Source of the DNA: a virus
DNA length: 50,052 nucleotides
Direction: 5' to 3' (one strand)
IMG/VR virus record: IMGVR_UViG_3300048903_000141
Span: 1-50,052 of that record
The notes beneath the pieces were generated by a model. The model was not told the origin of the DNA and searched no databases. It saw only the letters and a list, made by a program, of their open reading frames with translations. The position numbers and the translations under genes are program-made. Below, one piece after another: positions 7,210-44,472 of this stretch. Numbering within the stretch: position 1 is the stretch's first letter; the number at the start of each line of letters is the position of its first letter.

Positions 7210-7426
7210 TTTCAGTTGTGTTTGCTGTTTTACAATCTGGGTTTTCATACTGCCAAACCCCATTTACAAAATGCTCTGATATTGTCCCCGTTCTCAACAT
7301 GCCTCCATTGTACAATATTCGCTTTCGCCGTTTAATGCCGCATTTGCCGCACACCTCCACAATGTTTTGCTCCTCCTCATCCCATTTGGTGCCCCAGGTA
7401 TGCCGGGCCGCGCCGGTCTTACTCAT
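7199..7426 (-). CDS. Small zinc-ribbon-like protein, 75 aa
   Basis: Begins MSKTGAARHTWGTKW and contains VCGKCGIKRRKR, one CxxC knuckle followed by a basic patch, plus a later single Cys (NPDCK) and a His. It overlaps both neighbours by 8-11 nt. It is probably a small metal- and nucleic-acid-binding accessory protein, by inference only. Confidence 0.65.
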   Translation of the reverse strand: MSKTGAARHTWGTKWDEEEQNIVEVCGKCGIKRRKRILYNGGMLRTGTISEHFVNGVWQYENPDCKTANTTENGS

Positions 7427-7670
7427 TGCCGCCTCCGTTCATTTTCTGGGCAACTAGCACCATTGCCTTTAATTGTCTCTGTGTTTGCTCATCCAGCGGC
7501 ACCGGGTACGCAATGGCAAACCCCTTGCCCTTAAAGCTAATTAGCTCACAAGATTCAAAGGCCAAAAACTGGCTCTCCGGGTGTTTGGCAACTGCTGCTG
7601 CCAATGCCTCCTTTTCGTCTGAGGCTTCAATGTCATGAAAGATTGAAAAATGTACACGGTAAACTGGCAT
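7419..7670 (-). CDS. Hypothetical protein, 83 aa
   Basis: Begins MPVYRVHFSIFHDIEASDEKEALAAAVAKHP. The beta-strand, EAxDEKEAL helix and strand order resembles the small DpdA/PCF-type alpha-beta proteins that occur in many phages, without a definite match. Acidic N-terminal half, helical C-terminus ending MNGGGNE. Overlaps the next start by 8 nt. Confidence 0.6.
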   Translation of the reverse strand: MPVYRVHFSIFHDIEASDEKEALAAAVAKHPESQFLAFESCELISFKGKGFAIAYPVPLDEQTQRQLKAMVLVAQKMNGGGNE

Positions 7671-7692
7671 AAAGTTGTTTTTTGGGTTAATG

Positions 7693-8118
7693 TTATGATT
7701 TTTGATTCCTGTTTTTATTTAGCATTTTAGAACGCTCTTTGTTACCCCTTATTGATCCGGATATAATTTTTCTGTTTTTCTCTGCCTTGCTCTCCATCCA
7801 AAGAAAATTTCTTTGTTTGAAATCTAAATTTTTATACGTCTTATCCCTTTCAATTATATCAAATAGAGCTTGCCCAATCATTCTAACCTGACCACCATCC
7901 AATAATTTCCCCGGCTTTTCAATTTCTCTTTCCGGATTGATACACAAATATTCTTTGACCTCCTCATTAAAATCAATCTGGGCACAATGGTAATAAACCC
8001 ATAAAAGGTATTTGTGTTTCTGCAAATTGATAAGTTCTATTACTGACAAATCAGCGTGAATGCCGAATTTCAATACACTTTTTAGCGTCAATTTTCTTAA
8101 TAAGTGCGTCCCGTTCAT
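7693..8118 (-). CDS. Hypothetical protein, 141 aa
   Basis: Begins MNGTHLLRKLTLKSVLKFGIHADLSVIELINLQKHKYLLWVYY. The composition is helical and basic, with a strongly charged C-terminal tail (GNKERSKMLNKNRNQKS). The phrase GKYADLTVxxLLxxxKxxLxWxYY is, from memory, typical of a Bacteroidetes phage family of unknown function. Codon composition is slightly more AT-rich than its neighbours. Confidence 0.65.
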   Translation of the reverse strand: MNGTHLLRKLTLKSVLKFGIHADLSVIELINLQKHKYLLWVYYHCAQIDFNEEVKEYLCINPEREIEKPGKLLDGGQVRMIGQALFDIIERDKTYKNLDFKQRNFLWMESKAEKNRKIISGSIRGNKERSKMLNKNRNQKS

Positions 8119-8131
8119 GATTTTATGTTAT

Positions 8132-8560
8132 TTAAAAGAGTGATTGTTGGCCGGTCTTTTTGGCCCTGTTTTTCCTGAAATTTTCGCGGTGGTGGTCACG
8201 ATCCCGGTTTAAATGGCACCTCTGACAAAGTGCCCGGAGCCTGTCCAATTTCACCTCATTGTTGCCTTTATCGTTGTCAAGGTGTGCAACTGTCAATACA
8301 ACCTTTATGCGGCCATCACCGGCTCCCCTTGTTTTGTAAAAGCCATATTTATTTTGCTGGCTCAATAACCAATCTGCACAATATTCAAATTCCGCTCCCT
8401 CCCCTCTAATAATCATTGCATGATTTTTCACCCCGCACTCCTCACAACACGCATGCACCTTGATCTTTTTACCGTCCTTAACTTCACCGGCCCGTTGCAT
8501 GACAGCGGGCCGGATTTCTGTTTTCCAATTTGGCGGGTAATCATTGTAATTGATAGGCAT
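8132..8560 (-). CDS. HNH endonuclease, 142 aa
   Basis: The HNH core is clear: TVAHLDNDKGNN (His93, Asn100/101), then LRALCQRCHLNRD (Cys112, Cys115, His116). CEEC around residues 39-42 supplies the other half of the structural zinc site. Such proteins are metal-dependent nickases or nucleases, used by phages in homing, recombination or packaging. It sits among replication genes, immediately after the DnaA-like gene with only one base between stop and start. Confidence 0.85.
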   Translation of the reverse strand: MPINYNDYPPNWKTEIRPAVMQRAGEVKDGKKIKVHACCEECGVKNHAMIIRGEGAEFEYCADWLLSQQNKYGFYKTRGAGDGRIKVVLTVAHLDNDKGNNEVKLDRLRALCQRCHLNRDRDHHRENFRKNRAKKTGQQSLF

Positions 8561-8561
8561 G

Positions 8562-8936
8562 TTAATTGAGCTGGTATGGTTTACGATCCCAATGCATCAC
8601 CGATTTATATAAACGCATCACGCCCGGCATTTTCTTAATGTCATCCTCCAGTTTGTTCATTGCGTTGCCAATTGTGGTGTGGTCGTATTCGTGGCCACCC
8701 AGCATTGCGCCAACCTCTTTTTGAGAAAAGCCATAAGACAGCATTACTTTCCAGAATACCCAGCGGGCAAACTTCAAATCCTCGCGTTTGCTTTTGATCT
8801 GCAATGATTCAATGGGGATTTTAAGGAACATGCATATTTCCCTGATAACGTCCGCAACAACACCTCTCCCACCGTCTGAAATTGTCGGTGTGTGCCAATC
8901 AATGTTGGGTATTGGTATTTGATAACTGTATTGCAT
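8562..8936 (-). CDS. DnaA domain-IV-like DNA-binding protein, 124 aa
   Basis: Residues ~50-105 (REDLKFARWVFWKVMLSYGFSQKEVGAMLGGHEYDHTTIGNAMNKLED) match the C-terminal helix-turn-helix of DnaA, in which the GGRDHTTV signature contacts the DnaA box. Here it reads GGHEYDHTTI, with a two-residue insertion. There is no AAA+ domain, so this is a stand-alone origin- or operator-binding domain. Roles could include phage origin recognition or competition with host DnaA. Confidence 0.75.
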   Translation of the reverse strand: MQYSYQIPIPNIDWHTPTISDGGRGVVADVIREICMFLKIPIESLQIKSKREDLKFARWVFWKVMLSYGFSQKEVGAMLGGHEYDHTTIGNAMNKLEDDIKKMPGVMRLYKSVMHWDRKPYQLN

Positions 8937-8939
8937 GGC

Positions 8940-9422
8940 TTATTTCTTTTTAGGCTTGAAATTTTCTGATTCAATCGGGTTGTAATGGATTCCCTGCATG
9001 AATGCCTCCAACCTCTCATTTGCCTGGGCTGCTGTGATGTGGTCATGTTGCAAAAGAAAAATCAAATATGCCGCGCATGCCTGAGCCCCGTTGCGGTATG
9101 CCTTTGAGCTGTCGGGGAAATGGAGGAGATAATGCAACATATTCCGGTTGGCTGTCCACTCCTGATTGTCGGGCATATCTGGCTTTACAAAATACCCGCC
9201 AATCATAATGCAAATCTCCTCCTTTGTCCACGCTGGAATTGCTGGCTCCTGGTCAAAATACTCCCCGGCAAACTCCCATTGCTCAACCTCTCCGTTGCCA
9301 CCCTCTGGCACCCCCGTTTGAAGTTCAAAACAAAAAAATGCGGCTGGCATAATGCCCAGCTCAATGAGTTGTTGCGCCTGCTCTGAGGTGCAAACGAATA
9401 ATGCGGAATCAATTTTTTTCAT
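8940..9422 (-). CDS. Hypothetical protein, 160 aa, paralogue of 21732-22112
   Basis: Begins MKKIDSALFVCTSEQAQQLIELGIMPAAFFCFEL. The TxEQAxxLxxxGIxxxxxFxxE start, the middle AWTKEEICIMIGG block and the terminal QANERLEAF block line up with the 126-aa protein at 21732-22112. The two therefore seem to belong to one family. I have seen such proteins in Bacteroidetes phages without a function. It overlaps the upstream gene by 14 nt at a NTTET-encoding end. Confidence 0.65.
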   Translation of the reverse strand: MKKIDSALFVCTSEQAQQLIELGIMPAAFFCFELQTGVPEGGNGEVEQWEFAGEYFDQEPAIPAWTKEEICIMIGGYFVKPDMPDNQEWTANRNMLHYLLHFPDSSKAYRNGAQACAAYLIFLLQHDHITAAQANERLEAFMQGIHYNPIESENFKPKKK

Positions 9423-10610: not shown

Positions 10611-10663
10611 CAAAAGTAAATATACATTCCGAAAAATGAAACTTTTTTGAAACTTTTTTGAAA
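10611..10663 (-). promoter_or_regulatory. Phased-repeat promoter (site B)
   Basis: Three TTTC units at 10638, 10649 and 10660 (period 11) precede, after 19 nt, TACTTTTG (10611-10618 on the plus strand as CAAAAGTA), a perfect TAnnTTTG box. It drives the 98-aa gene. Confidence 0.8.
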
Positions 10664-15167: not shown

Positions 15168-15219
15168 GATAAGAATGTAAAACTATATTTTTTGAAACAA
15201 TTTTGAAACTTTTTTGAAA
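15168..15219 (-). promoter_or_regulatory. Phased-repeat element (site C), weak -7
   Basis: TTTC units at 15194, 15205 and 15216 (period 11), the middle A-tract interrupted. The only -7 candidate is TACATTCT, a poor match, so promoter strength is doubtful although the element is intact. Confidence 0.6.
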
Positions 15220-15660
15220 TTATTTTTTCAAACCGGGCTCCATTATTACAACCCCATAACATGCCAACATCAATTGTTTTTTCATTTGGTACGTGGGGAG
15301 CCTTGCAGTAAATTGGCTTTTATAGTCGATTACTTGAAAATTGCCGTTCCAATCCAGCGTGACGAAATCCGCAACGTATTCTCTCACATACACGTCTCCG
15401 GCATAAAGTTTAAACCTCACCTGTCTTTTGATCTCACGAAACTCCCCGTTGTTCATGCGGGCCTTTAGGTCTAACCAATAATACCCCTCCCCCTCAGATT
15501 GAAAATTAATGTTGTCGATCACAACCCACTTATTGCGGTATTTGTTGGGCTTTTTTTTCTTTTTGGCTTTCTCCAAAGCCTGCTCCGGGGTGAGCTGCTT
15601 AATTACTGACTTTGGGTTTTTATGCTCCTGAAATATTTCAGCTAATGTTTTGAGTTTCAT
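15220..15660 (-). CDS. DUF1064 / PD-(D/E)XK nuclease-like protein, 146 aa
   Basis: KYRNKWVVIDNINFQSEGEGYYWLDLKA, then REIKRQVRFKL, YVADFVTLDWNGNFQVIDYKS and TYQMKKQLM follow the DUF1064 pattern. Glu56/58, Asp98, Asp112 and Lys114 fit the D-(E/D)-x-K active site of the PD-(D/E)XK superfamily. Family members are thought to act as branched-DNA or structure-specific nucleases in phage replication modules. Start overlaps the upstream gene by 23 nt in a TTENE-encoding end (ACAACCGAAAATG). Confidence 0.8.
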   Translation of the reverse strand: MKLKTLAEIFQEHKNPKSVIKQLTPEQALEKAKKKKKPNKYRNKWVVIDNINFQSEGEGYYWLDLKARMNNGEFREIKRQVRFKLYAGDVYVREYVADFVTLDWNGNFQVIDYKSQFTARLPTYQMKKQLMLACYGVVIMEPGLKK

Positions 15661-16501: not shown

Positions 16502-17369
16502 CTGCTATTATTTTGTCAAACTGATTAACCAGGTTAGAAAGTAAAAAGTTGTTGTGAATCCATTCAATGTTGAATGCGTGTTGCAGGAAATGTAAAAGGG
16601 TGTCAGTTGCGTTTTTCTCATCCCACGGCCCCAGCTCCGGTTTTGTCTCCCTCCGCTTGTCGGCCCGCTTTTTCAATCGCTCAACGATCTCTTTTAATTG
16701 CTTGCCGTGTTGCCCCTCAAACGTTGGCTCCTCTCCCTTTTTCTCCAGATAGAATTTAAACCATACATCAACCAACGCTTGCCAATGCTCCGTTACCTTT
16801 TCTTTTTTCGCGGCACTTTTTTTCTTTTGGGAGGAGGAGCCGGTGCCCGGTTGATCTGCTGGCAAATTTTCCGGGGTGGCGTGAGCCACAATATTTTTTT
16901 GATTTGGTAAATTATTTTGTTTATTATCTGGTATAGTGTTGCCCGTCTGGGCAAATGGAGTGCCCGTTTGGGCAAATGCATTTTCCATAATCTGCTGGGC
17001 CTCAATTATAGCCGTGGCCCCTTTGGTGTTGCTCGTTTCGCCCAAATGGGCAAATGGGCCTGTGAGCCACTTTGCGGGGTCTTTGAACGTGTACCAACTT
17101 GTACGATCAAACCCGGTTTTGTTGAAGCAATCAACCTCCAACACCTCTCTCTCTATAAGGCTGTCTAATATCCTCCGCACCTGTTTCCGGCTCCAGTAAG
17201 GAAATATTTTGGTGAGTGCGTCAACGGTGTTGTAAGTCCAAAATTTACCGTTCTGGAGATTTTTTTTGTTTGCTGCATTCCTGATAATCCAGTATTGAAA
17301 ATTTGCAATCATGATTGCCTCATCAACCCCGTACTCCATTGCAACCTCAATGTTGAAAAAATGGTACAT
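16371..17369 (-). CDS. Replication-initiator-like winged-helix protein, 332 aa
   Basis: Residues 1-110 (MYHFFNIEVAMEYGVDEAIMIANFQYWI..., FPYWSRKQVRRILDSLIEREVLEV, WYTF) have the pattern of the helix-turn-helix initiator or primosome protein common in phages. A disordered Gln/Asn/Ser and KKKSAAKKEK linker follows, then a second helical domain (ALVDVWFKFYLEKKGEEPTFEGQHGKQLKEIVERLKKRA; FLQHAFNIEWIHNNFLLSNLVNQFDKII) like DnaD-type C-termini. It likely binds the origin and recruits helicase. The Gly/Ser tail overlaps the next gene's start by 131 nt. Confidence 0.7.
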   Translation of the reverse strand: MYHFFNIEVAMEYGVDEAIMIANFQYWIIRNAANKKNLQNGKFWTYNTVDALTKIFPYWSRKQVRRILDSLIEREVLEVDCFNKTGFDRTSWYTFKDPAKWLTGPFAHLGETSNTKGATAIIEAQQIMENAFAQTGTPFAQTGNTIPDNKQNNLPNQKNIVAHATPENLPADQPGTGSSSQKKKSAAKKEKVTEHWQALVDVWFKFYLEKKGEEPTFEGQHGKQLKEIVERLKKRADKRRETKPELGPWDEKNATDTLLHFLQHAFNIEWIHNNFLLSNLVNQFDKIIADAAEKRTTQHGNGTPNNLKGQQPISAHSAFAKLSAINSGSGGG

Positions 17370-21375: not shown

Positions 21376-21399
21376 AGCCACAATATTAAAATCTTTTTT

Positions 21400-21426
21400 G
21401 AAACTTTTCTAAAACTTTTATGAAAC
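21400..21426 (-). promoter_or_regulatory. Phased-repeat element (site D), near the HTH gene start
   Basis: Units at 21400, 21411 (first base altered) and 21422, period 11. The spacing to the ATG at 21375 leaves room only for TAATATTG as a -7, at 11 nt, so it may be an operator rather than a promoter. Confidence 0.5.
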
Positions 21427-21722
21427 TAACAAATGTAAAATCCCAGCTCTTTCAACTTTTTGTATTGCTTTTGCGTTAGCTTAATACTTAGCGAACTTTC
21501 ACATGAATCACCAACTAAAAATGTAAGTGTTGGCGGGAAAACGGTGCGCTTACCCGGTTTATGAGCCCTATGAACCGCCACAAAAACCTCTTTGGGATTT
21601 TCGCGCCACTTCACTTTGTTTATTAACGGCTCCAGCTTCTTTACTGGCTTTTGCTTTTCTATTTGCTTGATCTCCCCCCTCGCTGACTGCAAAAGAGCCT
21701 CATCATTTGTTGTTTCTGCCAT
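21426..21722 (-). CDS. Hypothetical protein, 98 aa
   Basis: Begins MAETTNDEALLQSARGEIKQIEKQKPVKKLEPLINKVKWRENPKEVFVAVHRAHK. The N-terminal helix is basic. The C-terminus is a beta part with VGDSCESSLSIKLTQKQYKKLKELGF. The last codons run into repeat element D. Function unknown. Confidence 0.6.
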   Translation of the reverse strand: MAETTNDEALLQSARGEIKQIEKQKPVKKLEPLINKVKWRENPKEVFVAVHRAHKPGKRTVFPPTLTFLVGDSCESSLSIKLTQKQYKKLKELGFYIC

Positions 21723-23274: not shown

Positions 23275-23328
23275 CAAAGGTAAAAGGTTATTTTCAATTT
23301 TTGAAACTTTTTTGAAACTTTTTTGAAA
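23275..23328 (-). promoter_or_regulatory. Phased-repeat promoter (site E) of the DUF932 gene
   Basis: Three units at 23303, 23314 and 23325, then after 20 nt TACCTTTG on the minus strand (23275-23282), a perfect TAnnTTTG box. Confidence 0.85.
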
Positions 23329-23383
23329 TAAAAATATTGAATTAACACCTCAAAACCTTTACTGTGTTGCTTTTTGTGCAAAT

Positions 23384-24055: not shown

Positions 24056-24082
24056 TAAAAAAACCGCTCAATGTGAGCGGCT
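24056..24082 (-). terminator. Terminator after the methyltransferase gene, overlapping the next promoter
   Basis: CCGCTCA/TGAGCGG stem (24064-24070 with 24074-24080) followed on the minus strand by TTTTTTTATCTTTA. The last eight bases look like a -7 box for the 200-aa gene. Confidence 0.8.
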
Positions 24083-24086
24083 TAAT

Positions 24087-25922
24087 TTATGCGGCATGCA
24101 ACTTTTGAATTTCGTTGTGAATGGCAATGCACCAACACGTTACCTGATTTGGTTCAACGCTGTTGCCTATGTGCTTTTTCTGCTCCTCCTGCGATCCGGC
24201 CAACACGTAGTCATTTGGAAATCCCTGTATTCTTAATAGCTCATCAACTCTCAACATTCTCATTTTTATGTCAATGATCCCATACATGGCCATGAACTGT
24301 TTGAGCATTACAACGGCTTTGCTGTCTGTTTCAAATATCCTTATGGCAAACTTTCCCTCCTCCACCATTACCAGGTAAAGCGGGGCTTTGTGCTGGCTGG
24401 CAACAATGGTTGGGCATGCCTCGCCAATATCATGCGTATGGCCACCATGAGACGGGTTGAGAATGTAAGGCCAATGCCGGCTGGCTGTTATCGCTGGCAA
24501 TGGCTCGTCTCCGCTGCTGGGAACGTTGGTGAAATTGGTACTATCAATAAATGAAAATTGGCCCTGTTTTGCAGTTAGCAATGCACTTTTAGGTGTATTC
24601 AAAATAGTTCCCAACGGCTCCTGCAAAGAGGAGTTATTATGCGGGCCGCTGTAATATTTATCAATAAACTGAGTGTTGATAATGTAAACGCTATCATTGC
24701 AAGGTAGCGTTGGCCCTGGGTTGTGCAATGAGTGCGTGTTGTCTCCGTTGCCGTGGTATGTGCCCAGAAATTGAATTTGATTTATTGAAAACCTGTTTTC
24801 CGTTGGAATGGTTGACAATGGGCCGTTGACGCTAATATTACGGCTTTCCGGGTTGCCTGAATAGTATTTGCTAATAAATGCACTCTCTGTTTCCGCTGGC
24901 TCCTCCGCTGTTGCTTTTTTGCTTTTCCTCCGGCCCGGTTTGAGCTTGCAATGTGTCTCAACCATTTCTGGGTAATTGGCCCGCACAAATGCCTCAAAAC
25001 GCTCACGGCCACCGGCAATATGCTTAATGCACCCCTCATAGTACCGGATCATTGAATTATCTCCAATGTCTTTGCGCTGCCTCTTTGGAATGGTCATATT
25101 CTGGGAACGGTGGAAAATGCTGATTCCCTCATCTTTCAAATCCAATTTTTCTTTTACTGCATTCCATTTCTTAAGCCCGTTTGCCCCGGTTTTGTGGTGC
25201 GTCTTTGCCGGCCATGCATTTGGCAGGCCGGGCCGCTTGAAGCAACCAAACAACCGGAGCCGTGACGTATATGCACCATAATCCGCTGCGTTCATTCGCT
25301 CCCATTCCATTTCATACCCCTCTGACATTACGGCCTCATTGAACTCACGGAAATATTCACCTTTCCTTTCTGGTATGGGCTCAACGCCAAAAATTCTCTC
25401 TTTGTGTTTATTGAGGATCACACACAAATCCCAAACCTCCCCGCCATACTCATTGTGCCAAACGCGCTCCGTCCTTATCCGGGTTGGCCCCAGAAACTCA
25501 AACTCCACCACGTTCTCAATTTTCACGTAATCGGTTTGCAGCTCCTTCACGTAACGCTCATAAAATACTTGGTAAAGTGTGCGGCTCTTTTCCTCTTTGG
25601 CCCTACCGCCCGCCGCTTTGCTCACCCCCTGGCACTCCAGCGATCCCCACAATACCGTTTTGGCCCGTGGGTACATCTTTTTATATTTCTCCAATATTGC
25701 TTTGAGCGGTGCAAGGTCTAACACTCTAATGTCCTCCTCAAAGTGGTGCGTGTCTGGGTGGTTGCACTTGTGGCTCAAAATGGCCGTGTGGTCATGATTC
25801 ACGCATGCGATCACTAACGCAATGCCTTTGGTCATAACAAAGCCGGTGGAAACTCCACCGGCACCACAAAACAAATCAATTACTAAAAATGTCGGCTCTG
25901 TAAAAATGTTCGGCATCAACAT
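24087..25922 (-). CDS. C5 cytosine methyltransferase-like protein, 611 aa
   Basis: Motif I VIDLFCGAGGVSTGF (FCGAGG 18-23) and motif VI IENVVEF (136-138) are plain. Motif IV reads GSLECQGVSKAAGG: Cys97, the nucleophile, is kept but the usual Pro is Glu. The final RIQGFPNDYVLAGSQEEQKKHIGNSVEPNQV equals motifs IX-X. Between them, residues ~360-530 carry repeated units (KYYSGN...PLSTIPT, GNGDNTHSLHNPGPTLP, KYYSGPHNNSSLQEPLGTI). The protein probably methylates phage DNA against host restriction. The altered motif IV makes activity and chemistry uncertain. Confidence 0.85.
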   Translation of the reverse strand: MLMPNIFTEPTFLVIDLFCGAGGVSTGFVMTKGIALVIACVNHDHTAILSHKCNHPDTHHFEEDIRVLDLAPLKAILEKYKKMYPRAKTVLWGSLECQGVSKAAGGRAKEEKSRTLYQVFYERYVKELQTDYVKIENVVEFEFLGPTRIRTERVWHNEYGGEVWDLCVILNKHKERIFGVEPIPERKGEYFREFNEAVMSEGYEMEWERMNAADYGAYTSRLRLFGCFKRPGLPNAWPAKTHHKTGANGLKKWNAVKEKLDLKDEGISIFHRSQNMTIPKRQRKDIGDNSMIRYYEGCIKHIAGGRERFEAFVRANYPEMVETHCKLKPGRRKSKKATAEEPAETESAFISKYYSGNPESRNISVNGPLSTIPTENRFSINQIQFLGTYHGNGDNTHSLHNPGPTLPCNDSVYIINTQFIDKYYSGPHNNSSLQEPLGTILNTPKSALLTAKQGQFSFIDSTNFTNVPSSGDEPLPAITASRHWPYILNPSHGGHTHDIGEACPTIVASQHKAPLYLVMVEEGKFAIRIFETDSKAVVMLKQFMAMYGIIDIKMRMLRVDELLRIQGFPNDYVLAGSQEEQKKHIGNSVEPNQVTCWCIAIHNEIQKLHAA

Positions 25923-26103
25923 AAAATCTTTCTCTTTTTTATAGTTTAAAAATTGTGTGGCTCCTGTGCGTGGCTTCGGGCCGGAGCATGTGGTGCATTT
26001 TCTGCACCACTTGCGGAGGCCCGAATGTCTTAAGACTAACAGACGGTAATAAAAAAATTGCGGGCCGTGTGCGGAGCTATTTTTTTATTTCTGTCTGTGC
26101 CTT
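25923..26103. other. Structured intergenic region with two long hairpins
   Basis: No ORF is visible in these 181 nt. Hairpin 1 (25975-26025): TTCGGGCC/GGCCCGAA outer stem, a GGA/GGA internal loop, then an inner GCA/TGC and GTGGTGCA/TGCACCAC stem closed by TTTTC. Hairpin 2 (26039-26098): ACAGAC/GTCTGT, then AATAAAAAAAT/ATTTTTTTATT around a 20-nt GC-rich loop. The loop of hairpin 2 contains CGGGCC, which repeats the left arm of hairpin 1 and could pair with its right arm. It may be a non-coding RNA, a leader switch for the methyltransferase, or a DNA site such as an origin. Confidence 0.7.
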
Positions 26104-26400
26104 TTAATCGTGACGGTGTGAGTTTTTGAAAATAAGTGAAAGTGAAAAAGAGCATGGGCAAAAATCCAAATTGTCCATGTCATTAAAGAGCTTGTTGAGC
26201 TGGGTTGCCTCCTCCGCTGTGAATAGTGGGGTAAAAGTATTTGTTGGCTCATTTGCTCCCAATGGCAAGTGGCTGGCATAATCTCCAACCTCGTGGGCAT
26301 CCTCCTCCGGGTGGTACAACTCAGCGTTGTTATAAAGGTCTGTAATGAGATGTTTGGCCTGCTCAATGGTGGCAATGCTTTCTGGGAGTTGTGTTTTCAT
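26104..26400 (-). CDS. Hypothetical protein, 98 aa
   Basis: Begins MKTQLPESIATIEQAKHLITDLYNNAELYHPEEDAHEVGDY. Acidic N-terminal two thirds, then a hydrophobic and Cys-containing end (DFCPCSFSLSLIF). The start context ACAACTGAAAATG is the same as at other genes in this window. The end runs up to the structured region. Not recognised. Confidence 0.6.
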   Translation of the reverse strand: MKTQLPESIATIEQAKHLITDLYNNAELYHPEEDAHEVGDYASHLPLGANEPTNTFTPLFTAEEATQLNKLFNDMDNLDFCPCSFSLSLIFKNSHRHD

Positions 26401-26877: not shown

Positions 26878-26930
26878 CAAAGGTAAACAACGTTTTTCAT
26901 TTTTGAAACTTTTTTGAAACAAAATTGAAA
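26878..26930 (-). promoter_or_regulatory. Phased-repeat promoter (site F)
   Basis: Units at 26905, 26916 and 26927, followed after 19 nt by TACCTTTG (26878-26885), a perfect TAnnTTTG. Upstream, a CTGTAAAGG-like block is shared with site E (CAGTAAAGG). The rest of the 203-nt gap 26849-27051 holds this promoter and one terminator. Confidence 0.85.
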
Positions 26931-26995: not shown

Positions 26996-27024
26996 AAAAA
27001 CCCAGCTAAAAAGCCGGGTTTTTT
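26996..27024 (-). terminator. Terminator after the endolysin gene
   Basis: CCCxGCT/AGCxGGG stem near 27001-27018 with a short A-rich loop, followed by TTTTTGC on the minus strand. Confidence 0.85.
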
Positions 27025-36907: not shown

Positions 36908-37129
36908 CTAACTCTTATTGTTGCGTGATCTGTTGCGGGCATTCTCATCTTTGATCCGTTGCAACCACAAATCATAAATGCCCCAGAAATCCAAAACGTC
37001 TAATGCAATTATGCGGTTATACTCATCAATTGAACCGTTGGCCATTTTAAACCACAACTCAACCCAGCTCTTTTTGATCTTTTTTAATTCTGCTTCGGGG
37101 TGGAGGGGCTTGTTGTCTGCTCCGGCCAA
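36908..37129 (-). CDS. Tail assembly chaperone T part, made by -1 frameshift, 73 codons
   Basis: This frame has no ATG. Its first possible start is TTG at 37129, immediately after the slippery heptamer GGGAAAT at 37129-37135. It encodes a helical, tryptophan-rich segment (KKIKKSWVELWFKMANGSIDEYNRIIALDVLDFWGIYDLW). As in lambda G/GT, it is expected as the C-terminal extension of the upstream 200-aa protein. The GT form would recruit tape measure and tube subunits. Independent translation is unlikely. Confidence 0.8.
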   Translation of the reverse strand: MAGADNKPLHPEAELKKIKKSWVELWFKMANGSIDEYNRIIALDVLDFWGIYDLWLQRIKDENARNRSRNNKS

Positions 37130-37686
37130 TTTCCCCGTGGGCTCATTTCTAAGGCTGCGTTGATTACGGTTTGGGCCACCTCCATTTTTTCCAAAATGTT
37201 TTGGGTAAAGCTGGTATAGAGTTCGGTGAATCCAGGTACTATAATCAACGCAATAGCGAAAAAATCATGAGTATCTATGCCGGCCCTTTTCCAATCCTCC
37301 AATTTCTGCACCACCGTATCATTTCCCCATTGCGTCCTATCCTCTTCTTTCGTGTTCACGCATAGGGTGCAAATTTTGAGCATGGTTGGCTCTTTCTCTT
37401 TGAGCTTCACCATATGATTCAAAAGTTTGTCCGCATGCACCGCTGCGTCCGCAAACCTTACTTTGTTGAGCAATTCCCGCTGGGTAATCATGGCCTCATA
37501 AATTTGCTCTAAGGTCATACCCATTTGCAACTCCCTCTGGAGAATCACAAACTCACAGTAACGGCCAATTGGCAAACGTGTCTCCAGATAGTACGTTTTC
37601 CCGTTGGCCTCAAATTGGCCTGCTTTAAAGTCTATCCGCTTAAGGGCTCCCAGGCTGTCCCAATTGCTGGTGTCAATTTTCTGCAT
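37084..37686 (-). CDS. Tail assembly chaperone G part, 200 aa
   Basis: Begins MQKIDTSNWDSLGALKRIDFKAGQF. Helical protein (ILQRELQMGMTLEQIYEAMITQRELL..., AEALHADKLL-like region) with a Pro/Ser/Thr-rich end. It stands two genes before the tape measure and overlaps the T frame by 46 nt, as tail chaperones do. The zero frame reads CGG GGA AAT at the slip site and continues 16 more codons to TAA. Product ratio between G and GT would be set by the frameshift. Confidence 0.8.
   Translation of the reverse strand: MQKIDTSNWDSLGALKRIDFKAGQFEANGKTYYLETRLPIGRYCEFVILQRELQMGMTLEQIYEAMITQRELLNKVRFADAAVHADKLLNHMVKLKEKEPTMLKICTLCVNTKEEDRTQWGNDTVVQKLEDWKRAGIDTHDFFAIALIIVPGFTELYTSFTQNILEKMEVAQTVINAALEMSPRGNWPEQTTSPSTPKQN
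37129..37135 (-). promoter_or_regulatory. Programmed -1 ribosomal frameshift site
   Basis: GGGAAAT in the X_XXY_YYZ register of the zero frame (G GGA AAT). It differs by one base from the lambda G/GT heptamer GGGAAAG. A slip here joins the 200-aa and 73-codon frames. Confidence 0.8.
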
Positions 37687-38029
37687 CGTTTTTTCGTTGT
37701 ATTTGATTAATGATAAATGAAATTATGACGGTAAAAATAATAGCTGATCCAATGGTGAGCAAGTGGCAAAGGAGATTGTAATGCCGCCAATGGTACCTGA
37801 TATAAAGCCACAACGCCAATTGCCCGGCAAAACATTTCTCACAGCCCCAAATGGGCCGGTAAAACCACCGCTCCACCTCAACGTTGTTCACAACCTTAAT
37901 CCCTACCTTTTGACCGATTACAAACCACCAATTGGCCACGCGCTCATTGGGGAGGATCACCAACAACACCGTTGAGAATATTGAGCAACAAAGGCCCAGA
38001 TAAAGGGCCAAATTAAAGTTGTGAATCAT
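37673..38029 (-). CDS. Integral membrane protein with CxxC, 118 aa
   Basis: Hydrophobic segments near residues 5-26 (FNLALYLGLCCSIFSTVLLVIL) and 85-108 (LLCHLLTIGSAIIFTVIISFII). A polar stretch between them contains WGCEKCFAGQLALW, a motif like that of DUF1360-type membrane proteins. It sits between tail genes with ATGA overlap upstream and 14-nt overlap downstream. A membrane protein in a structural cluster is odd, and its role is unknown. Confidence 0.6.
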   Translation of the reverse strand: MIHNFNLALYLGLCCSIFSTVLLVILPNERVANWWFVIGQKVGIKVVNNVEVERWFYRPIWGCEKCFAGQLALWLYIRYHWRHYNLLCHLLTIGSAIIFTVIISFIINQIQRKNDAEN

Positions 38030-38649
38030 TGTACAAAGTTGAGTTGTTTAAAACAGGTTTGAGACACCCAAAATTTACATTGCAAGTCAAGGGCAAAATA
38101 TTCATATGGGGGCCGGAGATATTGCAATTCTGCCTCATCGTAATTGTAACGGGAAAATATATTGGCATCTTGTATTGGCACCCCTGCAAGCGTCACAAAC
38201 AACCGGGAAATGCCAATTGTTGAGTTGATCCCCGTGCCCTTTACCAAACGGGCCACGATCTCAGAAATAAAGTTGGCCGTTACCTCCTCATATTTCGGCA
38301 TATCTCCCTCCAGAATCTTTTGCCGGTTCACCCAGCAAACCAGACGTAACCGGGACACCACCGCCAATTGGCCGGCCTTTACTTTCGCGCCGGTGTCTGG
38401 AGTGGTTCCAAAGTCCTCAAAGTAAAGTATGCCTTTCTTTGTGCCATCTGGCACCAACGCCCGCTCTCCCATGCCGTCCTCAATATCATAGGACACCGGC
38501 AATTTCTTTTGGATTTTCTGGGCCTGCTGATCCGTTCCGGCCTCTGCATACCTTGTATCAATGACGGGTTGGGCAAGCCCTGCAACCGTGTGCAAAAAGG
38601 GCAAATCAACCAACATGCCCTTTAAAATGTTTGATAGTTCCTTTACCAT
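38026..38649 (-). CDS. Tail completion/terminator-like protein, 207 aa
   Basis: Begins MVKELSNILKGMLVDLPFLHTVAGLAQPVIDTRY. An alpha-beta protein with DFGTTPDTGAKVKAGQLAVVSRLRLVCWVNR and YFALDLQCKFWVSQTCF, consistent with a tail-terminator or connector protein between the head and the tail chaperone genes. Assignment is by order and general appearance only. Confidence 0.5.
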   Translation of the reverse strand: MVKELSNILKGMLVDLPFLHTVAGLAQPVIDTRYAEAGTDQQAQKIQKKLPVSYDIEDGMGERALVPDGTKKGILYFEDFGTTPDTGAKVKAGQLAVVSRLRLVCWVNRQKILEGDMPKYEEVTANFISEIVARLVKGTGINSTIGISRLFVTLAGVPIQDANIFSRYNYDEAELQYLRPPYEYFALDLQCKFWVSQTCFKQLNFVQ

Positions 38650-38652
38650 ATA

Positions 38653-39216
38653 CTAAAAACCGTTGTTTTTAAAGATAAGTTGGATTTGCTCCAACATTAC
38701 CTGAGTTAAAATTTTGATCTCCTCCGGCCCCAATGACTTGCCCAGGTAATCCCCGTACCTGTCACGGTTCCAATTCATCTTGTTAACAACCTCCGCTGAA
38801 TTGCCACCCAGCGGGCAAACAATTTGCCCCTCTCCTTTGTAGTATGGAGTTTGCGGCCCCATTCCGGCCCACATCTTATTGGTAAACCCCAGGTCAACAT
38901 GATCTGTTGGCAAACCCTCCGCTCTCCGGAGGTCGGCCCACGTCATGCCGGTTTCCTCTCCGTCCTTCGCGGCCTCATCCTTTTTTTTGACGCTCTCAAT
39001 GTATGCGGCACCGGCATTGCTCTTTTCCTTGCCGTCAAAAAACCACGCTGGCAACTTGTTACCAGAATACATTGCGCCAAAGCCTTGTTGCCTAATTTTC
39101 CGCTCAATGAGGGCTTTGGCCGTTATCGTGTTCAAACGGGAAAGGTCAGGCAAGGAATTTAATATTTCCTGCCTGACCTTTTGCAACCGCCTCTGTAAAT
39201 CGTTGAGGTCTGCCAT
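38653..39216 (-). CDS. Head-tail connector/virion morphogenesis-type protein, 187 aa
   Basis: Begins MADLNDLQRRLQKVRQEILNSLPDLSRLNTITAKALIERKI. Helical N-terminus, then a loop region (YSGNKLPAWFFDG) and the segment HVDLGFTNKMWAGMGP, which resembles HK97-gp10 or Mu-type morphogenesis proteins (RTGxLxxS is replaced). The end is helical (GPEEIKILTQVMLEQIQ). The stop/start junction with the next gene shares one base. Confidence 0.5.
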   Translation of the reverse strand: MADLNDLQRRLQKVRQEILNSLPDLSRLNTITAKALIERKIRQQGFGAMYSGNKLPAWFFDGKEKSNAGAAYIESVKKKDEAAKDGEETGMTWADLRRAEGLPTDHVDLGFTNKMWAGMGPQTPYYKGEGQIVCPLGGNSAEVVNKMNWNRDRYGDYLGKSLGPEEIKILTQVMLEQIQLIFKNNGF

Positions 39217-40310
39217 TAGCTGTAAATTGTACCTTTTACAATCTTATCCTCTTTGCAAGTGTAACAATTGGTTTCTCCCAATGTGAGGTTGTTGGCAATG
39301 GCTGTAATACGATCCTCATATTCTTTCCGGAAATGGTTGCGCTTGCCCCATAGGTACTCACGATTTTGCAAGTTCACCCGGTTAACCTGGGCACCCTTAA
39401 AAATGTACTCAATCCAAAGCTCCCCGGCCTTGTATCTGGTGGCCCACGCCATCATTTGTTGTATGGCCTCCTGTTTGTCGTATTCGCGGCACACAACGGT
39501 GTCTGTGTCGCAACCAACCTCCATTGAAACGGAAAAGCCATGCCCCCTTTCGTCTGCTGTAACGTTGTGTAAACGCTGGGTGTCGCTGAATGCAACGCCT
39601 TTGTAAGTCATGTATGCATTTAACGCTCTGGTTAAATCCCGCCCGTTGCATGAGCCGCACCGGATATTGTTATTTTTCGGCATCAACCCTCCGGCCTCAT
39701 TGCGATCATAGAAAATCCAGTATTCCAGCGGGTGGCCGTCCTCCTCCATTGGTAAGGTAATGCCGCCCTCCGGCATGGTGGCGTTTGTCCACGATCCGGC
39801 AACGGTTGTGATCTCCAGCGTGTGCAATGGCTCATCAACGAAACTCATATCTTTTGCATACACCTTATGAATGTACACATTGAACGTTGCGGCACCATTG
39901 AGACAAAGGGAAATTGCATTGATTTTGATATTGCCGGCAATGGCCTCGATCATGCGGTATCTTTGGCCCTGATATTGTCCGCTTGTGTGCAATACCCCAG
40001 ACACGGAGCGTTGCCCCACTTGCCCGTTGAACTTAATTTTTGCAGGCTGGAAACGGCTATTGATTGCCAAAAGTAAATCCGCTTTCAGGCTCTTTTGGGC
40101 CTCCGTTTTCGCGTCCAATGCTGACTGCAACGCAAACTCCATTGATTCCTGTGTATCTATGGCCATAAGGTCAATGCCGCCCGGCAATGCATCCATAAAC
40201 AAGTCAGAATTGGAAACGGCAATTGCGGCTTGCATTTCCTCACTTAGCTCATTGTAGAATGGAATGGAGGCGTTGTTGGTAACGCCAATAATATCTGTAA
40301 TGCAGTCCAT
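39216..40310 (-). CDS. Virion-type protein after the major capsid gene, 364 aa
   Basis: The ATG at 40310 (MDCITDIIGVTNNASIPFYNELSEEMQ) is chosen because the upstream part of the frame is the terminator and promoter. The middle is beta-rich with an unusual RCGSCNGRDLTRALNAYMTYKG and the end has TNCYTCKED, so there are at least two Cys pairs. Order suggests a connector, decoration or head-closure protein. The TNCYTCK motif and 18 underlying bases are shared with the lipoprotein gene at 2241-2504. Function unproven. Confidence 0.55.
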   Translation of the reverse strand: MDCITDIIGVTNNASIPFYNELSEEMQAAIAVSNSDLFMDALPGGIDLMAIDTQESMEFALQSALDAKTEAQKSLKADLLLAINSRFQPAKIKFNGQVGQRSVSGVLHTSGQYQGQRYRMIEAIAGNIKINAISLCLNGAATFNVYIHKVYAKDMSFVDEPLHTLEITTVAGSWTNATMPEGGITLPMEEDGHPLEYWIFYDRNEAGGLMPKNNNIRCGSCNGRDLTRALNAYMTYKGVAFSDTQRLHNVTADERGHGFSVSMEVGCDTDTVVCREYDKQEAIQQMMAWATRYKAGELWIEYIFKGAQVNRVNLQNREYLWGKRNHFRKEYEDRITAIANNLTLGETNCYTCKEDKIVKGTIYS

Positions 40311-40328
40311 AATGGTTAAATGTTTTCT

Positions 40329-40360
40329 CAAATGTATAATAAAAAACCCGGCACCGCAAA
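40329..40360 (-). promoter_or_regulatory. Promoter nested in a terminator loop
   Basis: TACATTTG (40329-40336) is a perfect -7 box. Exactly 20 nt upstream, TTTG (40357-40360) forms the -33 and lies in the 6-nt loop of the terminator at 40347-40368. Confidence 0.8.
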
Positions 40361-40372
40361 GTGCCGGGCTTT
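40341..40372 (-). terminator. Terminator after the major capsid gene
   Basis: CCCGGCAC/GTGCCGGG stem (40347-40354 with 40361-40368), then TTTTTTATTATA on the minus strand. It encloses the -33 element of the next promoter in its loop. Confidence 0.9.
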
Positions 40373-40393
40373 CCCCTAAATTCACAAAGGTTC

Positions 40394-41500
40394 TTATGCT
40401 GTTACCTTGTAACCATAAATACCTGTTGGCGTGTACTCCGTGCCGTCAATTGTTTGAGGGCATGGTGTTGGGTTCAGGAATATACCTCCACGGGTAATAA
40501 ACCTCCAGGTGTGTATATCACGGCCCGCATTACAGCTCATTGTGTAAATGACATCGTAATAAACGCCGGGGAGAATGTTGGATTTGTAGCGGAAACGGGT
40601 TTGGTTGATCTTACCGCGCTTTTCCACCGGGGCATCCGTGTAACGTGTGTACGTGTTCATTGAAACCGCATTGCGATCCACTAAGAACATATTTTCAGCA
40701 ACACCGGCTCCGGTAAAGTTCCACATATCGAAATTCAAATCAATTTTCGATTTGCGGAGGTCGTTGCCCTTGCCGTCAAGGTTTCCACCGTCTAATCCTG
40801 CGTTCATCCACTCCTCAAAGAAAGTGCCATCCTCCAGGTAAAAACCACTTTCGGCCATGTTAAGCTGCATTTGCTTAATGAGGTTGGCAACCATACCCAT
40901 TTTGTAAGACGCTGCCGGGATCAAAGAGCGGGTATTGGCCGCATCCCACGTAAATGGTGAGGAGCGGTTGGCAATAACCGGAATGTTTGGCCCCATGTTG
41001 GCTTTGTAATATGCAATGATCTGGCGTGTCCACCATTCGCTCAACTGCTTATCAGCTTTGAGGAAACCGTGTGCCACTTGCTCCACGCGCTCATACATGT
41101 TTGTACGAATTTTTTCATCATCAACCGAAAAGTCAAACTTTTGGCTCATGGTCATTTCATACTCCTTGCTGTCGCTCTCCAGCTCTGGGCCTTCGATGTC
41201 GCAAACGTCCGTTGTCTGGTCGAAATCGTCCGTGTCCAAACCGCACGATTTTATCCAGGTAAGGTTTACAATGTTGTCTTTGTCTGGGTTGTTAAGCTCC
41301 TGCACACGGGCCGTTTGCTTTTCCAGTTGAGTAATTGCAGCGTCACAATGGGGTTTGATGTCATCGGTAAATTTACCCTCTGCCCATTTCTCCTCTGCTT
41401 TCAATTTGTACTCCAGAATTTCCGACTCATCGAAATCTCCAGCGGCACCGGCTACGTGTACATATCTCCGGTTAACGAAAGGCAAAAAAAGTTTTTTCAT
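40394..41500 (-). CDS. Major capsid protein, 368 aa
   Basis: Position after a scaffold-like gene and size fit a major capsid protein. The sequence shows capsid-like parts: KEYEMTMSQKFDFSVDDEKIRTNMYERVEQVAHGFLKADKQL, a linking PFTWDAANTRSLI, and a C-terminal beta part (LPGVYYDVIYTMSCNAGRDIHTWRFITRGG). It starts with MKKLFLPFVNRRYVHVAG, the clearest copy of the shared leader, followed by acidic helices that could be a delta domain. I cannot show whether the leader is cleaved. Confidence 0.75.
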   Translation of the reverse strand: MKKLFLPFVNRRYVHVAGAAGDFDESEILEYKLKAEEKWAEGKFTDDIKPHCDAAITQLEKQTARVQELNNPDKDNIVNLTWIKSCGLDTDDFDQTTDVCDIEGPELESDSKEYEMTMSQKFDFSVDDEKIRTNMYERVEQVAHGFLKADKQLSEWWTRQIIAYYKANMGPNIPVIANRSSPFTWDAANTRSLIPAASYKMGMVANLIKQMQLNMAESGFYLEDGTFFEEWMNAGLDGGNLDGKGNDLRKSKIDLNFDMWNFTGAGVAENMFLVDRNAVSMNTYTRYTDAPVEKRGKINQTRFRYKSNILPGVYYDVIYTMSCNAGRDIHTWRFITRGGIFLNPTPCPQTIDGTEYTPTGIYGYKVTA

Positions 41501-41541
41501 AAAAAAGTTGTGTGTTAAAAATTGGGTTAAAAAATGGCTCC

Positions 41542-42525
41542 TTACTTTTTGCCGTTTTCGCTTCGGTAAGTGTCCATTACAACACGCTTTTGTTCAGGCT
41601 TTAAATCTCCCCTGTCCATTATCGCGGCCAATTCTGTTGCGTTCTTTGGTTTCGTTACTCCAGCCGGATAAGCCGCGCCGCCGCCTGCTCCTCCTTTGCT
41701 TTTGTCTGCACCGCCTGCTCCTCCTGGGTTTGCACCGCCGTTGTTAGCGGCAAAATCAAAATGAGTTGTGGCGATTGCTTTAACGTGTTCCGCAAAATCC
41801 AACGTGTGACCGTGTTGATCTTGTTGTAATGCACCGTCCTTTGACACTAAAATTTTTCCGTCTTTCTCCTCATAGTCGAAACCAGAAAGTGAATTGAGGA
41901 AAGTCTTTTTTTGCGTCTCCGCTACTGTGGCATTTGTTGAAAAAACCGGGTTCAGGCCGGTGAGCAATGTCATTGCGCTCTCTCCAACTTTGCTGAATGT
42001 TGAGGCTTTGGCATGCTCCGTTTTAATTTGGGTCACTTCGTCCGTGTGGGCCTTTTTAGCGTCTGCCACTTGCTTTTTCCAAATGGCCTCCTGCTGCTGA
42101 AAGAAAGAGGATTTTTTAATGTCCTCATCATTTTTTGCGGCACCTTCACCGGCCTTTTTGCTTATGATTTCGTCCATAAGCTCAATGCCGATTTTGTCAG
42201 ATTCAACCCCGTAATGCTCCTTTAATTCTTTTTCGCGCTGTGTAAGCCCTTCGGATTTCCCTTTGTTTTCACCCTCTTTGAGCTTGCCTTTGGCCGCTTC
42301 AATTTGGATTTTTTTGACCCTTTCCACATCATGAGCTTTTACAGCATCAATTGCGGCTTGTGCCGTGGTTCCGTCCTTTAGAATTTCGGAGATTGTATTT
42401 GCATCCAGCTTATAGACTGTGGATAAAAGTCCGGTAAGAATCTCCGTGCTATCGGGTGCGCCCCCGTCACCAAAAACGTGTGTGAATCTTGATGAAGCAA
42501 AGAGTAATTTGGCCGTGTATTTCAT
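41542..42525 (-). CDS. Scaffold-like protein, 327 aa
   Basis: Highly charged, helical middle (VKAHDVERVKKIQIEAAKGKLKEGENKGKSEGLTQREKELKEHYG; QQEAIWKKQVADAKKAHTDEVTQIKTEHAK), a Gly/Ala-rich linker (NNGGANPGGAGGADKSKGG) and a short basic C-terminus (KPEQKRVVMDTYR). These traits and the position before the capsid gene match scaffolding proteins. The N-terminus carries the leader in a divergent form (LLFASSRFTHVFG). The promoter is unusually close to the ATG. Confidence 0.7.
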   Translation of the reverse strand: MKYTAKLLFASSRFTHVFGDGGAPDSTEILTGLLSTVYKLDANTISEILKDGTTAQAAIDAVKAHDVERVKKIQIEAAKGKLKEGENKGKSEGLTQREKELKEHYGVESDKIGIELMDEIISKKAGEGAAKNDEDIKKSSFFQQQEAIWKKQVADAKKAHTDEVTQIKTEHAKASTFSKVGESAMTLLTGLNPVFSTNATVAETQKKTFLNSLSGFDYEEKDGKILVSKDGALQQDQHGHTLDFAEHVKAIATTHFDFAANNGGANPGGAGGADKSKGGAGGGAAYPAGVTKPKNATELAAIMDRGDLKPEQKRVVMDTYRSENGKK

Positions 42526-42527
42526 AA

Positions 42528-42535
42528 CAAAAGTA
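42528..42535 (-). promoter_or_regulatory. -7 box touching the start codon of the scaffold-like gene
   Basis: TACTTTTG on the minus strand, a perfect TAnnTTTG, only two bases before the ATG at 42525, with a TTTC -33 candidate 20 nt upstream. The mRNA would be nearly or fully leaderless. Confidence 0.6.
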
Positions 42536-42590
42536 TTTTGTTGTGTTGAAAAAATGAAAAAAAGTTTTTTTGATGTTGGTATGCCGGGAA

Positions 42591-43388
42591 TTATTTGCCC
42601 GCTGGTTTGCCGTTGTTGGCTTTGCCGTTAGGCTTTGCCGGTGTCTTTTTAGTTGATCCGTTTGCCGCTGGAGCTGCTGGTGCCGCTGCTGTTTGCTTTG
42701 CCGCCTTTGCCTCTGGCATTTCCTTTGCGATCTCAACCCAGCCGGATTTGTTGTTGCCCAACGTCACCCATGTTTGCCTGGAGAAAGTGCGGAATTGCGG
42801 TTGCTTATGGCCTTTGAGTTGGCGTTTCGCGTCCACGTAATCCGGGCCGTGCAATGCCACCTTTGCCTCATGATCTGCCAACGCTTGCTCCTCTGCACTC
42901 AGCGGTGCCGGTTTGTTGCGGTCTGCAATGATCTCCTCCGCACGGGCAATTGTGCGCTTTGCTGGCTCCAGCAAGTGCGGGTTGTTGGCCAACTGAATTG
43001 CACCGTTCTCAATGTCCTCCTCACTTGGAGTTGGGATTGTGGTTGCTGGCTCCGTAACCTCCGGCTCCGGTGTTTCCTCTTTCACAACTGGCTCCTCTGG
43101 TGCGGGTGTAACAACTGGCTCTGGAGTTGTCACCGCTGGCTCAACCGGAGCGGGTGTTTGGCCGTCACCGTTTTGTTGCTCTGGAGCTGGTGTTGCTCCG
43201 TCTCCCTCCTTCGGGCCTTTGTCGGCATCTGCTTCACCGTCCTCTCCCTGGTCTTTGTCCTTATCCTTTTGCTCCTCCTGCTCCTTTTTTTCCTGCTGGG
43301 ATTTCTGGAGGGCTTTTGCGGCATCGTCTACATTACCGGCAACGTGTGAAAACCTCCGGTTGGTAAACGGTAAAAAAATCTTTTTCAT
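42591..43388 (-). CDS. Tagged virion-type protein with Lys/Ala/Pro tail, 265 aa
   Basis: Starts MKKIFLPFTNRRFSHVAG, a clear copy of the leader. A long low-complexity part follows: first K/Q/E/D-rich, then P/E/V/T-rich (residues ~65-125). A small folded piece (HGPDYVDAKRQLKGHKQPQFRTFSRQTWVTLG) then leads to a histone-H1-like basic tail (KKTPAKPNGKANNGKPAGK). It lies between the MuF-like and scaffold genes. An internal head protein that binds DNA is one possibility, by inference from composition and position. Confidence 0.6.
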   Translation of the reverse strand: MKKIFLPFTNRRFSHVAGNVDDAAKALQKSQQEKKEQEEQKDKDKDQGEDGEADADKGPKEGDGATPAPEQQNGDGQTPAPVEPAVTTPEPVVTPAPEEPVVKEETPEPEVTEPATTIPTPSEEDIENGAIQLANNPHLLEPAKRTIARAEEIIADRNKPAPLSAEEQALADHEAKVALHGPDYVDAKRQLKGHKQPQFRTFSRQTWVTLGNNKSGWVEIAKEMPEAKAAKQTAAAPAAPAANGSTKKTPAKPNGKANNGKPAGK

Positions 43389-43412
43389 AAAACAATGATT
43401 TTTAGTTGGCTC

Positions 43413-43444
43413 TAAAGGTAGTAGAAACTTTTTTGAAACACAAA
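43413..43444 (-). promoter_or_regulatory. Phased-repeat promoter (site G), two units
   Basis: Units at 43424 and 43435. TTTG at 43441-43444 precedes TACCTTTA (43413-43420) by 20 nt. The TTTG is also the end of the preceding terminator's T-run. Confidence 0.7.
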
Positions 43445-43473
43445 GCCCCGGAGCTGTTATGCTCTGGGGCTTT
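43441..43473 (-). terminator. Terminator after the MuF-like gene
   Basis: AAAGCCCCxGAGC/GCTCxGGGGCTTT stem (43442-43473), ending on the minus strand in GGGGCTTTG, the TTTG doubling as the next -33. Confidence 0.85.
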
Positions 43474-43518
43474 GCTGTTGGCTATGCATTACCAATCCGT
43501 GCAAAACAAAGATATGCT

Positions 43519-44415
43519 TTATGCCGCAATTGCCAAATCAGGCCGCATAATCACCGCCACGGTGTACGGAATCCAATTTAAATGATGTCGGCAACCAAAG
43601 CCTCCCAAATCTGTAAACGGGTTGTAATTGGGTTGCTTTGCCTCCTTCGGATCAAATGCCGCTATCTCCTCACGGGTGAACACTTTGCCGTTGCGCTCAA
43701 TGCAAAACTTTCTGGAGGTCTTTATTAAACCACCCTCATAAATGGCATAGTTCAATTTCAGCTTGTCCGCATACACTTGTGCCGCCGCCCGGTCAACCTG
43801 TGAATAAGTATCATAAACAAAGTTGCGGTAATACTTTTGGAGGAGGCCCGCCGTTTGCTGGTTGCCCTCAATGAATTGCTTTACCTCTGCTCTCATTGCG
43901 TCATGGCCCTGCTGTCCCACAACGGCCCGCAATGCCAAATTTTTCAAATCATTCAACACTTTTGTGTCTGATACCGTTTTTTGCAAATAGCCGTTACCCT
44001 CCAAAGCTCCGTTACCTTTCAGGCCCAGCCATGATTGCATGAACTCTTTCACCGTGGCATTTATTGGGATCAACACGGCCTTAGTGTTGAAGCCCTGGTA
44101 ATACTTGCCGTTGAAATCCAATATTGATTTCACACCGTCAACCATTGTTTTGGCGATCTCCACACCGTCCGTTTTCACGTACTGAGTAAATATTGTGTCA
44201 ACCGTGGCCAACAACCGCTTGTTGCGTAACGTGTCCTTTATGCGGCCATCCTCTGCCACGTCCAATTTGTTCACAAAGTCATTGAGGAAACGGTTGAGCA
44301 ACTTTTGCTGGGCCGCTGTAACTGTTTTCTCCAGCTCTGCCAATAGCTCATCAACCAATTTTGTGCGGTTGCCCGCTGCCTTTCGGATTAACTTTTGTAA
44401 CTCCTTACCGTCCAT
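43519..44415 (-). CDS. MuF-like minor head protein, 298 aa
   Basis: A helical protein whose end reads KTSRKFCIERNGKVFTREEIAAFDPKEAKQPNY followed by GGFGCRHHLNWIPY. This is the Cys-x-x-Arg ... GCRHxLxW pattern of SPP1 gp7/MuF-type minor head proteins. These sit near the portal and are injected or needed for head assembly. Gene order (portal, MuF, scaffold, capsid) is the classical one. No toxin domain is fused. Confidence 0.75.
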   Translation of the reverse strand: MDGKELQKLIRKAAGNRTKLVDELLAELEKTVTAAQQKLLNRFLNDFVNKLDVAEDGRIKDTLRNKRLLATVDTIFTQYVKTDGVEIAKTMVDGVKSILDFNGKYYQGFNTKAVLIPINATVKEFMQSWLGLKGNGALEGNGYLQKTVSDTKVLNDLKNLALRAVVGQQGHDAMRAEVKQFIEGNQQTAGLLQKYYRNFVYDTYSQVDRAAAQVYADKLKLNYAIYEGGLIKTSRKFCIERNGKVFTREEIAAFDPKEAKQPNYNPFTDLGGFGCRHHLNWIPYTVAVIMRPDLAIAA

Positions 44416-44427
44416 TGATACATAATT

Positions 44428-44458
44428 TAAGCCCGGAAATTGTACATATTTCCGGGCT
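44428..44458 (-). terminator. Hairpin after the portal gene
   Basis: Perfect 10-bp stem GCCCGGAAAT/ATTTCCGGGC (44431-44440 with 44448-44457). The following TTAAATTATG is T-poor, so it may stall or process RNA rather than terminate. Confidence 0.6.
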
Positions 44459-44472
44459 GTTTACTGTAAAGA

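Follow-up and report, generated by a model that had tools for sequence, protein, structure and literature searches.

Two adjacent hairpins in the non-coding gap ahead of a C5 cytosine DNA methyltransferase (MTase) gene are best read, with a probability of about 40%, as an intercistronic mRNA element of processing or stability that would uncouple MTase expression from that of the genes upstream. The element is real, well bounded and of a familiar kind, and it is not an Rfam family, a canonical terminator, an evident origin or a supported switch. All positions refer to the window, that is, the whole 50,052-base record analysed.

Architecture of the hairpin pair

The elements found in the gap are the following:

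25975..26025, minus strand: hairpin 1, with 8 bp, a 3x3 internal loop, 3 bp, one mismatch, 8 bp and a 5-nt loop (GAAAA on the minus strand)
26027..26036, unstranded: perfect 10-bp palindrome GTCTTAAGAC, in the 13-nt linker between the hairpins
26039..26098, minus strand: hairpin 2, with 6+1+11 pairs as minus-strand RNA (8+11 as plus-strand RNA) and the 20-nt loop AGCUCCGCACACGGCCCGCA

An earlier note on this DNA had placed hairpins at 25975-26025 and 26039-26098, and both were recovered there. Its account of hairpin 1 as an 8-bp outer and an 8-bp inner stem around a GGA/GGA loop is accurate for the outer stem and the loop, but passes over the 3 bp and the mismatch of the inner part. For hairpin 2, its description of about 19 pairs and a 20-nt loop containing CGGGCC proved correct.

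The internal loop of hairpin 1 is symmetric, reading GGA/GGA on the plus strand and UCC/UCC on the minus strand, while its single mismatch is U.U on the former and A.A on the latter; the predicted energies are -33.8 kcal/mol for minus-strand RNA and -35.3 kcal/mol for plus-strand RNA. The stem of hairpin 2 consists of 8 pairs (one of them G.U on the plus strand and an A.C mismatch on the minus strand), one mismatch and 11 pairs, with an A7/T7 tract lying within the stem and a weak 5-bp inner helix inside the 20-nt loop, and its energies are -19.7 kcal/mol (minus) and -23.7 kcal/mol (plus). Each hairpin thus amounts to some 18-19 pairs with internal loops, and neither contains a continuous 20-bp duplex. 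The palindrome of the linker is weak on its own, 54 ten-base palindromes being present in the window.

Every pairing is possible on both strands, with a whole-fold energy of -61.0 kcal/mol for the plus strand versus -55.3 kcal/mol for the minus strand. This slight advantage arises because the A.C mismatch of the minus strand becomes G.U on the plus strand and because the GGA/GGA loop is purine-rich. A single wobble position is not decisive regarding the strand, and a role as plus-strand RNA or single-stranded DNA keeps its place beside the minus-strand one, which is favoured by gene direction.

Rarity of the hairpin pair

When the inverted repeats of the window were ranked by a simple score, the two hairpins came first and joint second. 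Hairpins scoring at least 13 were absent from 20 first-order Markov replicates of the window. Other loci have them singly, at a frequency of ~0.85 per 50 kb in one set (1.47 Mb) and ~1.4 per 50 kb in a further 0.91 Mb. Two such hairpins within 60 nt of each other were not found anywhere in these 1.47 Mb + 0.91 Mb (2.4 Mb) of other sequence. Folding z-scores relative to shuffled sequences were -7.12 for the minus strand and -5.75 for the plus strand. Considering (i) the top ranks, (ii) the Markov null, (iii) the lack of any such pair elsewhere, and (iv) the z-scores, the hairpin pair is not a product of chance.

Gene neighbourhood and probable transcription unit

The features that surround the hairpins are these:

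24061..24083, minus strand: intrinsic terminator that closes the operon immediately behind the MTase gene
24087..25922, minus strand: the gene downstream of the hairpins, for a C5 cytosine DNA methyltransferase of 611 aa (phrog_116, 7e-57; PF00145, 2e-26)
25923..26103, minus strand: 181-nt non-coding gap that separates the 98-aa gene from the MTase gene and holds both hairpins
26104..26400, minus strand: 98-aa gene of no family, the upstream gene, coding-like (codon score 0.175)
26878..26913, minus strand: probable operon promoter AAAAGTTTCAAAAA ... TACCTTTG, with TACCTTTG at 26885, which fits TAnnTTTG
26996..27023, minus strand: intrinsic terminator behind the endolysin gene, which bounds the operon on its upstream side

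In the order of transcription, the endolysin gene and its terminator are followed by an AT-rich spacer that contains a phased GTTTCAAAAAA repeat and TACCTTTG, then by three small genes (~51, 67 and 98 aa), the gap, the MTase gene and the second terminator. TAnnTTTG is the published consensus for the Bacteroidota primary sigma factor (PMC6847099), and no promoter of this kind was detected on either strand, be it in the gap or just ahead of it. Likewise, a scan that finds both bracketing terminators detects no canonical terminator in 25923-26103 on either strand. Since promoter and terminators bracket the segment and none is internal to it, the hairpins most likely lie inside one transcript running from the 98-aa gene to the MTase gene. 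Their position ahead of the methyltransferase in transcription, as the earlier note had it, is supported by this placement and by the co-directional genes.

The same observations bear on whether hairpin 2 might act as an attenuator or weak terminator, halting part of the transcription that arrives from one side or from both and thereby lowering the amount of RNA that extends into the MTase gene. Its situation directly after a stop codon, that of the 98-aa gene 5 nt ahead of it, would suit such a role, and so would the A7/U7 tracts flanking a GC-rich apical region, an arrangement of A-tract, GC-rich part and U-tract shared with intrinsic bidirectional terminators. Unlike in the latter, however, the U-tract lies within the stem, the GC helix at the apex is weak (just 2+3 pairs with an internal loop), and the terminator scan passes it over; hairpin 1, for its part, is not followed by a U-tract. 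Attenuation is consequently considered rather unlikely.

A separate small RNA, either processed from the minus strand or started on its own as a plus-strand antisense transcript of the early operon, would agree with a compact, strongly folded element of ~125 nt and with the slightly better plus-strand fold, in which one mismatch becomes G.U. A weak sigma-70-like match at 25916 on the plus strand could provide its start, although 8 such matches were found versus 7.5 expected, a chance level. The lack of TAnnTTTG within or just before the gap on both strands and of any Rfam match above threshold also argues against a small RNA, which appears quite improbable.

Regarding coding capacity, the gap contains only ORFs of 50 aa or less. 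A 54-codon stop-free frame running through the hairpins into the MTase gene was evaluated as a hidden coding frame and rejected, since a start codon is missing and the codon score of -0.07 falls below the 1st percentile of true coding sequences. The previous statement that no ORF lies in this region therefore holds in substance. In the neighbouring 98-aa gene, the last 25 codons (26104-26180) score as non-coding (-0.24 versus 0.175 for the whole gene), which possibly reflects a frameshift or a recent extension into the hairpin region.

The region of the MTase start codon is A-rich and unpaired in the fold, in line with what is expected for Bacteroidota leaders (PMC6847099), so that the fold contains no built-in translational switch. 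GGCC is not depleted in the window (350 occurrences versus 288 expected), so that it allows no inference on the target site of the MTase.

Complementarity between loop 2 and hairpin 1

As had been pointed out, the CGGGCC of loop 2 is identical with the left arm of hairpin 1; on the minus strand, GGCCCG of loop 2 accordingly matches the 5' arm of hairpin 1 over 6 nt. This match does exist and was the basis for proposing a two-state RNA switch or a kissing complex between loop 2 and the arms of hairpin 1. Nonetheless, with hairpin 1 held fixed, at least 6 complementary bases are found in 20% of shuffled loops and in 26% of GC-matched genomic 20-mers, so the 6-bp match is probably due to chance. 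The loop/arm pairing is also energetically uncompetitive, yielding ~-13.5 kcal/mol as a free duplex against the ~-34 kcal/mol that would be lost from hairpin 1, and neither a ligand nor an expression platform is visible. When the growing minus-strand transcript is folded in nested, pseudoknot-free form, hairpin 2 stays intact at every length; this procedure cannot represent a pseudoknot and leaves room for a short-lived contact during transcription. On these grounds, the kissing structure or fold switch is regarded as highly unlikely.

Search for relatives

None of the 4227 Rfam families matched at or above its gathering score, the best sub-threshold hit being RmaA with 23.1 bits versus the 57 needed. 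The idea that the gap encodes a twin-hairpin phage RNA of a kind not yet described, perhaps a separate small RNA, setting the timing or dose of the MTase in infection of a Bacteroidota host, is put forward as a distinctly speculative one. No homologue of the element was found in phages and plasmids by megablast, blastn and tblastn, and in IMG/VR neither two hairpin patterns nor the MTase, terminase, RecT, endolysin and 98-aa proteins as queries led to a relative carrying it. The relaxed pattern for hairpin 1 matched 107 stretches, none of which (0/107) had the inner stem. Genomes around possible hosts (6 + 296, the latter from one candidate host family) similarly contained no copy, and two weak matches in them correspond to ordinary sequence without a stem, one lying within a dihydroorotase-like ORF.

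Homologues of the MTase were gathered from IMG/VR and, by MTase alignment, from GTDB species genomes. They reach up to 43% identity over most of the protein and share almost no synteny with the window. The 230 nt upstream of 129 homologous MTase loci showed no excess of hairpins over background; the hairpins thus do not represent a leader common to the MTase family.

Palindromic units absent from relatives might also be expected of a mobile-repeat remnant (MITE- or REP-like) with no current function. No further copy of the hairpins was detected, however, in the window, in phages and plasmids or in the 296 genomes of the candidate host family, and this origin is deemed very unlikely.

The phage, its map and the DNA-site alternative

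Practically all genes of the window lie on the minus strand, and they include a RecE/RecT pair, a Dda-like helicase, an O-like replication initiator, an endolysin and a tape-measure protein. Flavobacterium phages are nearest for its terminase and helicase. From its sequence, the window is read as a tailed, poorly known phage of a Bacteroidota host. The region 37084-49144 is interpreted as a very divergent virion module; nine of nine structural-region proteins tested gave no PHROG match, and among six of them also run against Pfam the sole match was a weak one, to terminase, at 47339-49144.

A second record of the same virus, IMGVR_UViG_3300048904_000088 (34,837 bases), is identical with the window over 27252-50052 and 1-9045. 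This identity spans 31.8 kb and stops at window position 27252, leaving the hairpins outside it. The second record joins both ends of the window via ~3 kb absent from it, indicating a circular or circularly permuted map of ~53 kb. An 18-bp tandem repeat, GGTGTTGTCGCCAATGCT, occupies window positions 2-111 and continues at ~25549-25907 of the second record; it probably broke the assembly at that end.

Within the O-like initiator gene, four copies of an iteron-like repeat, built around GCCC(G)T(T/C)TGGGCAAATG, lie at 16936-17057 and constitute a candidate lambda-type origin. They are relevant to a further possibility, namely that the hairpins work as a DNA site, where a protein such as the MTase as autorepressor, or another phage DNA-binding protein, would bind the inverted repeats or GTCTTAAGAC, or where an extruded or single-stranded hairpin would prime replication. 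Perfect dyad symmetry, operative on both strands, and the palindrome between the hairpins fit this explanation, and there are known C5 MTases that bind the DNA upstream of their own genes. On the contrary, the gap has no promoter to control, and related MTases are found without upstream hairpins. The origin hypothesis of the earlier note fares poorly as well: GC skew takes no turn at the hairpins, near 26 kb, and the better origin candidate is provided by the iteron-like repeats at 16936-17057. Altogether, a DNA site seems rather improbable, and an origin at the hairpins unlikely.

The hairpins as a proposed intercistronic mRNA element

Among the roles suggested earlier, that of a structured RNA upstream of the MTase gene in the same unit is the best supported; the leader switch is not supported and the DNA origin is disfavoured. 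The reading of the hairpins as an intercistronic mRNA element is favoured because (i) two inverted repeats that rank among the strongest in the window adjoin in one non-coding gap between co-directional genes, (ii) the fold is far stronger than in shuffled sequences on the transcribed strand (z -7.1), (iii) the positions of promoter and terminators assign both genes to one operon with no internal promoter match or terminator, (iv) the MTase start region is unpaired, as in Bacteroidota leaders (PMC6847099), and (v) a precedent of the same size and type of position exists in T7 R1.1 (PMC6121014). The latter, which RNase III cuts, lies between the T7 early genes 1.0 and 1.1 and forms a 60-nt hairpin interrupted by an internal loop (PMC6121014). 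As at RNase III sites of the T7 type, a hairpin of roughly 20 bp is present here between genes of one transcript, the one-transcript part deriving from promoter and terminator placement.

In this phage, a short early operon, entirely on the minus strand, would run from the promoter at ~26885 through three small genes, the hairpins and the C5 MTase gene to the terminator at 24083-24061. Hairpin 2 would serve as a 3' guard closing the small-gene segment 5 nt after its stop codon, and hairpin 1 as a 5' guard opening the MTase leader ~50 nt before its unstructured, A-rich start region. Most probably the duplexes would be cut by the host RNase III, block exonucleases, or both, cutting in the stems being the likely trigger. 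Both halves of the message would then gain separate stabilities, and the MTase level would be uncoupled from that of the small proteins. We infer transcription of the gap from 26885, the fold of the RNA in the cell and, with moderate-to-low confidence, a function in processing or stabilisation.

Some observations weigh against the mRNA-element reading. The slightly better folding of the plus strand means that the minus strand is not favoured by folding, a continuous 20-bp duplex is lacking, no relative carries the element, and the 129 MTase loci show no hairpin excess.

The resemblance to the T7 early RNase III sites lies in a hairpin with an internal loop that occupies the gap from one early gene to the next on a polycistronic message. 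On the other hand, the hairpins here are in tandem, with a symmetric internal loop, in an unrelated Bacteroidota phage, and their cleavage is hypothetical; sequence similarity is not to be expected. Operators of the gene 43 type, ahead of T4 replication genes, are hairpins in the 5' leader, ~40 nt before the start codon (PMC3014915); they measure 16-18 nt and overlap the ribosome site. They have in common with the present case a leader hairpin (~50 nt before the start here) upstream of an early DNA-modifying or replicating enzyme, but the start region that is overlapped in T4 is free here.

Putative early promoters and biological significance

The promoter ahead of the operon belongs to a family in which 1-3 copies of GTTTCAAAAAA at 11-nt spacing precede TAC(C/T)TTTG, with the following members:

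26878-26930, minus strand: GTTTCAAAAAA repeat with TAC(C/T)TTTG
23275-23330, minus strand: the same
10611-10663, minus strand: the same
2521-2577, minus strand: the same
near 21387-21427 and 15190-15226: related GTTTCAAAAAA arrays

The combined GTTTCAAAAAA/promoter pattern gives 2 exact matches versus 0 expected, and the family is interpreted as putative early promoters. The 11-nt phase suggests a helically phased site for an activator or repressor, or phased A-tracts.

This promoter family may be a more useful lead than the hairpins, a pair that is otherwise an ordinary type of phage element. A brief literature search found no described counterpart in a Bacteroidota phage. If the operon reading is true, the hairpins would act on the early message of a Bacteroidota phage as a point of post-transcriptional control and would show how such a phage separates the dosage of its MTase from that of co-transcribed genes.
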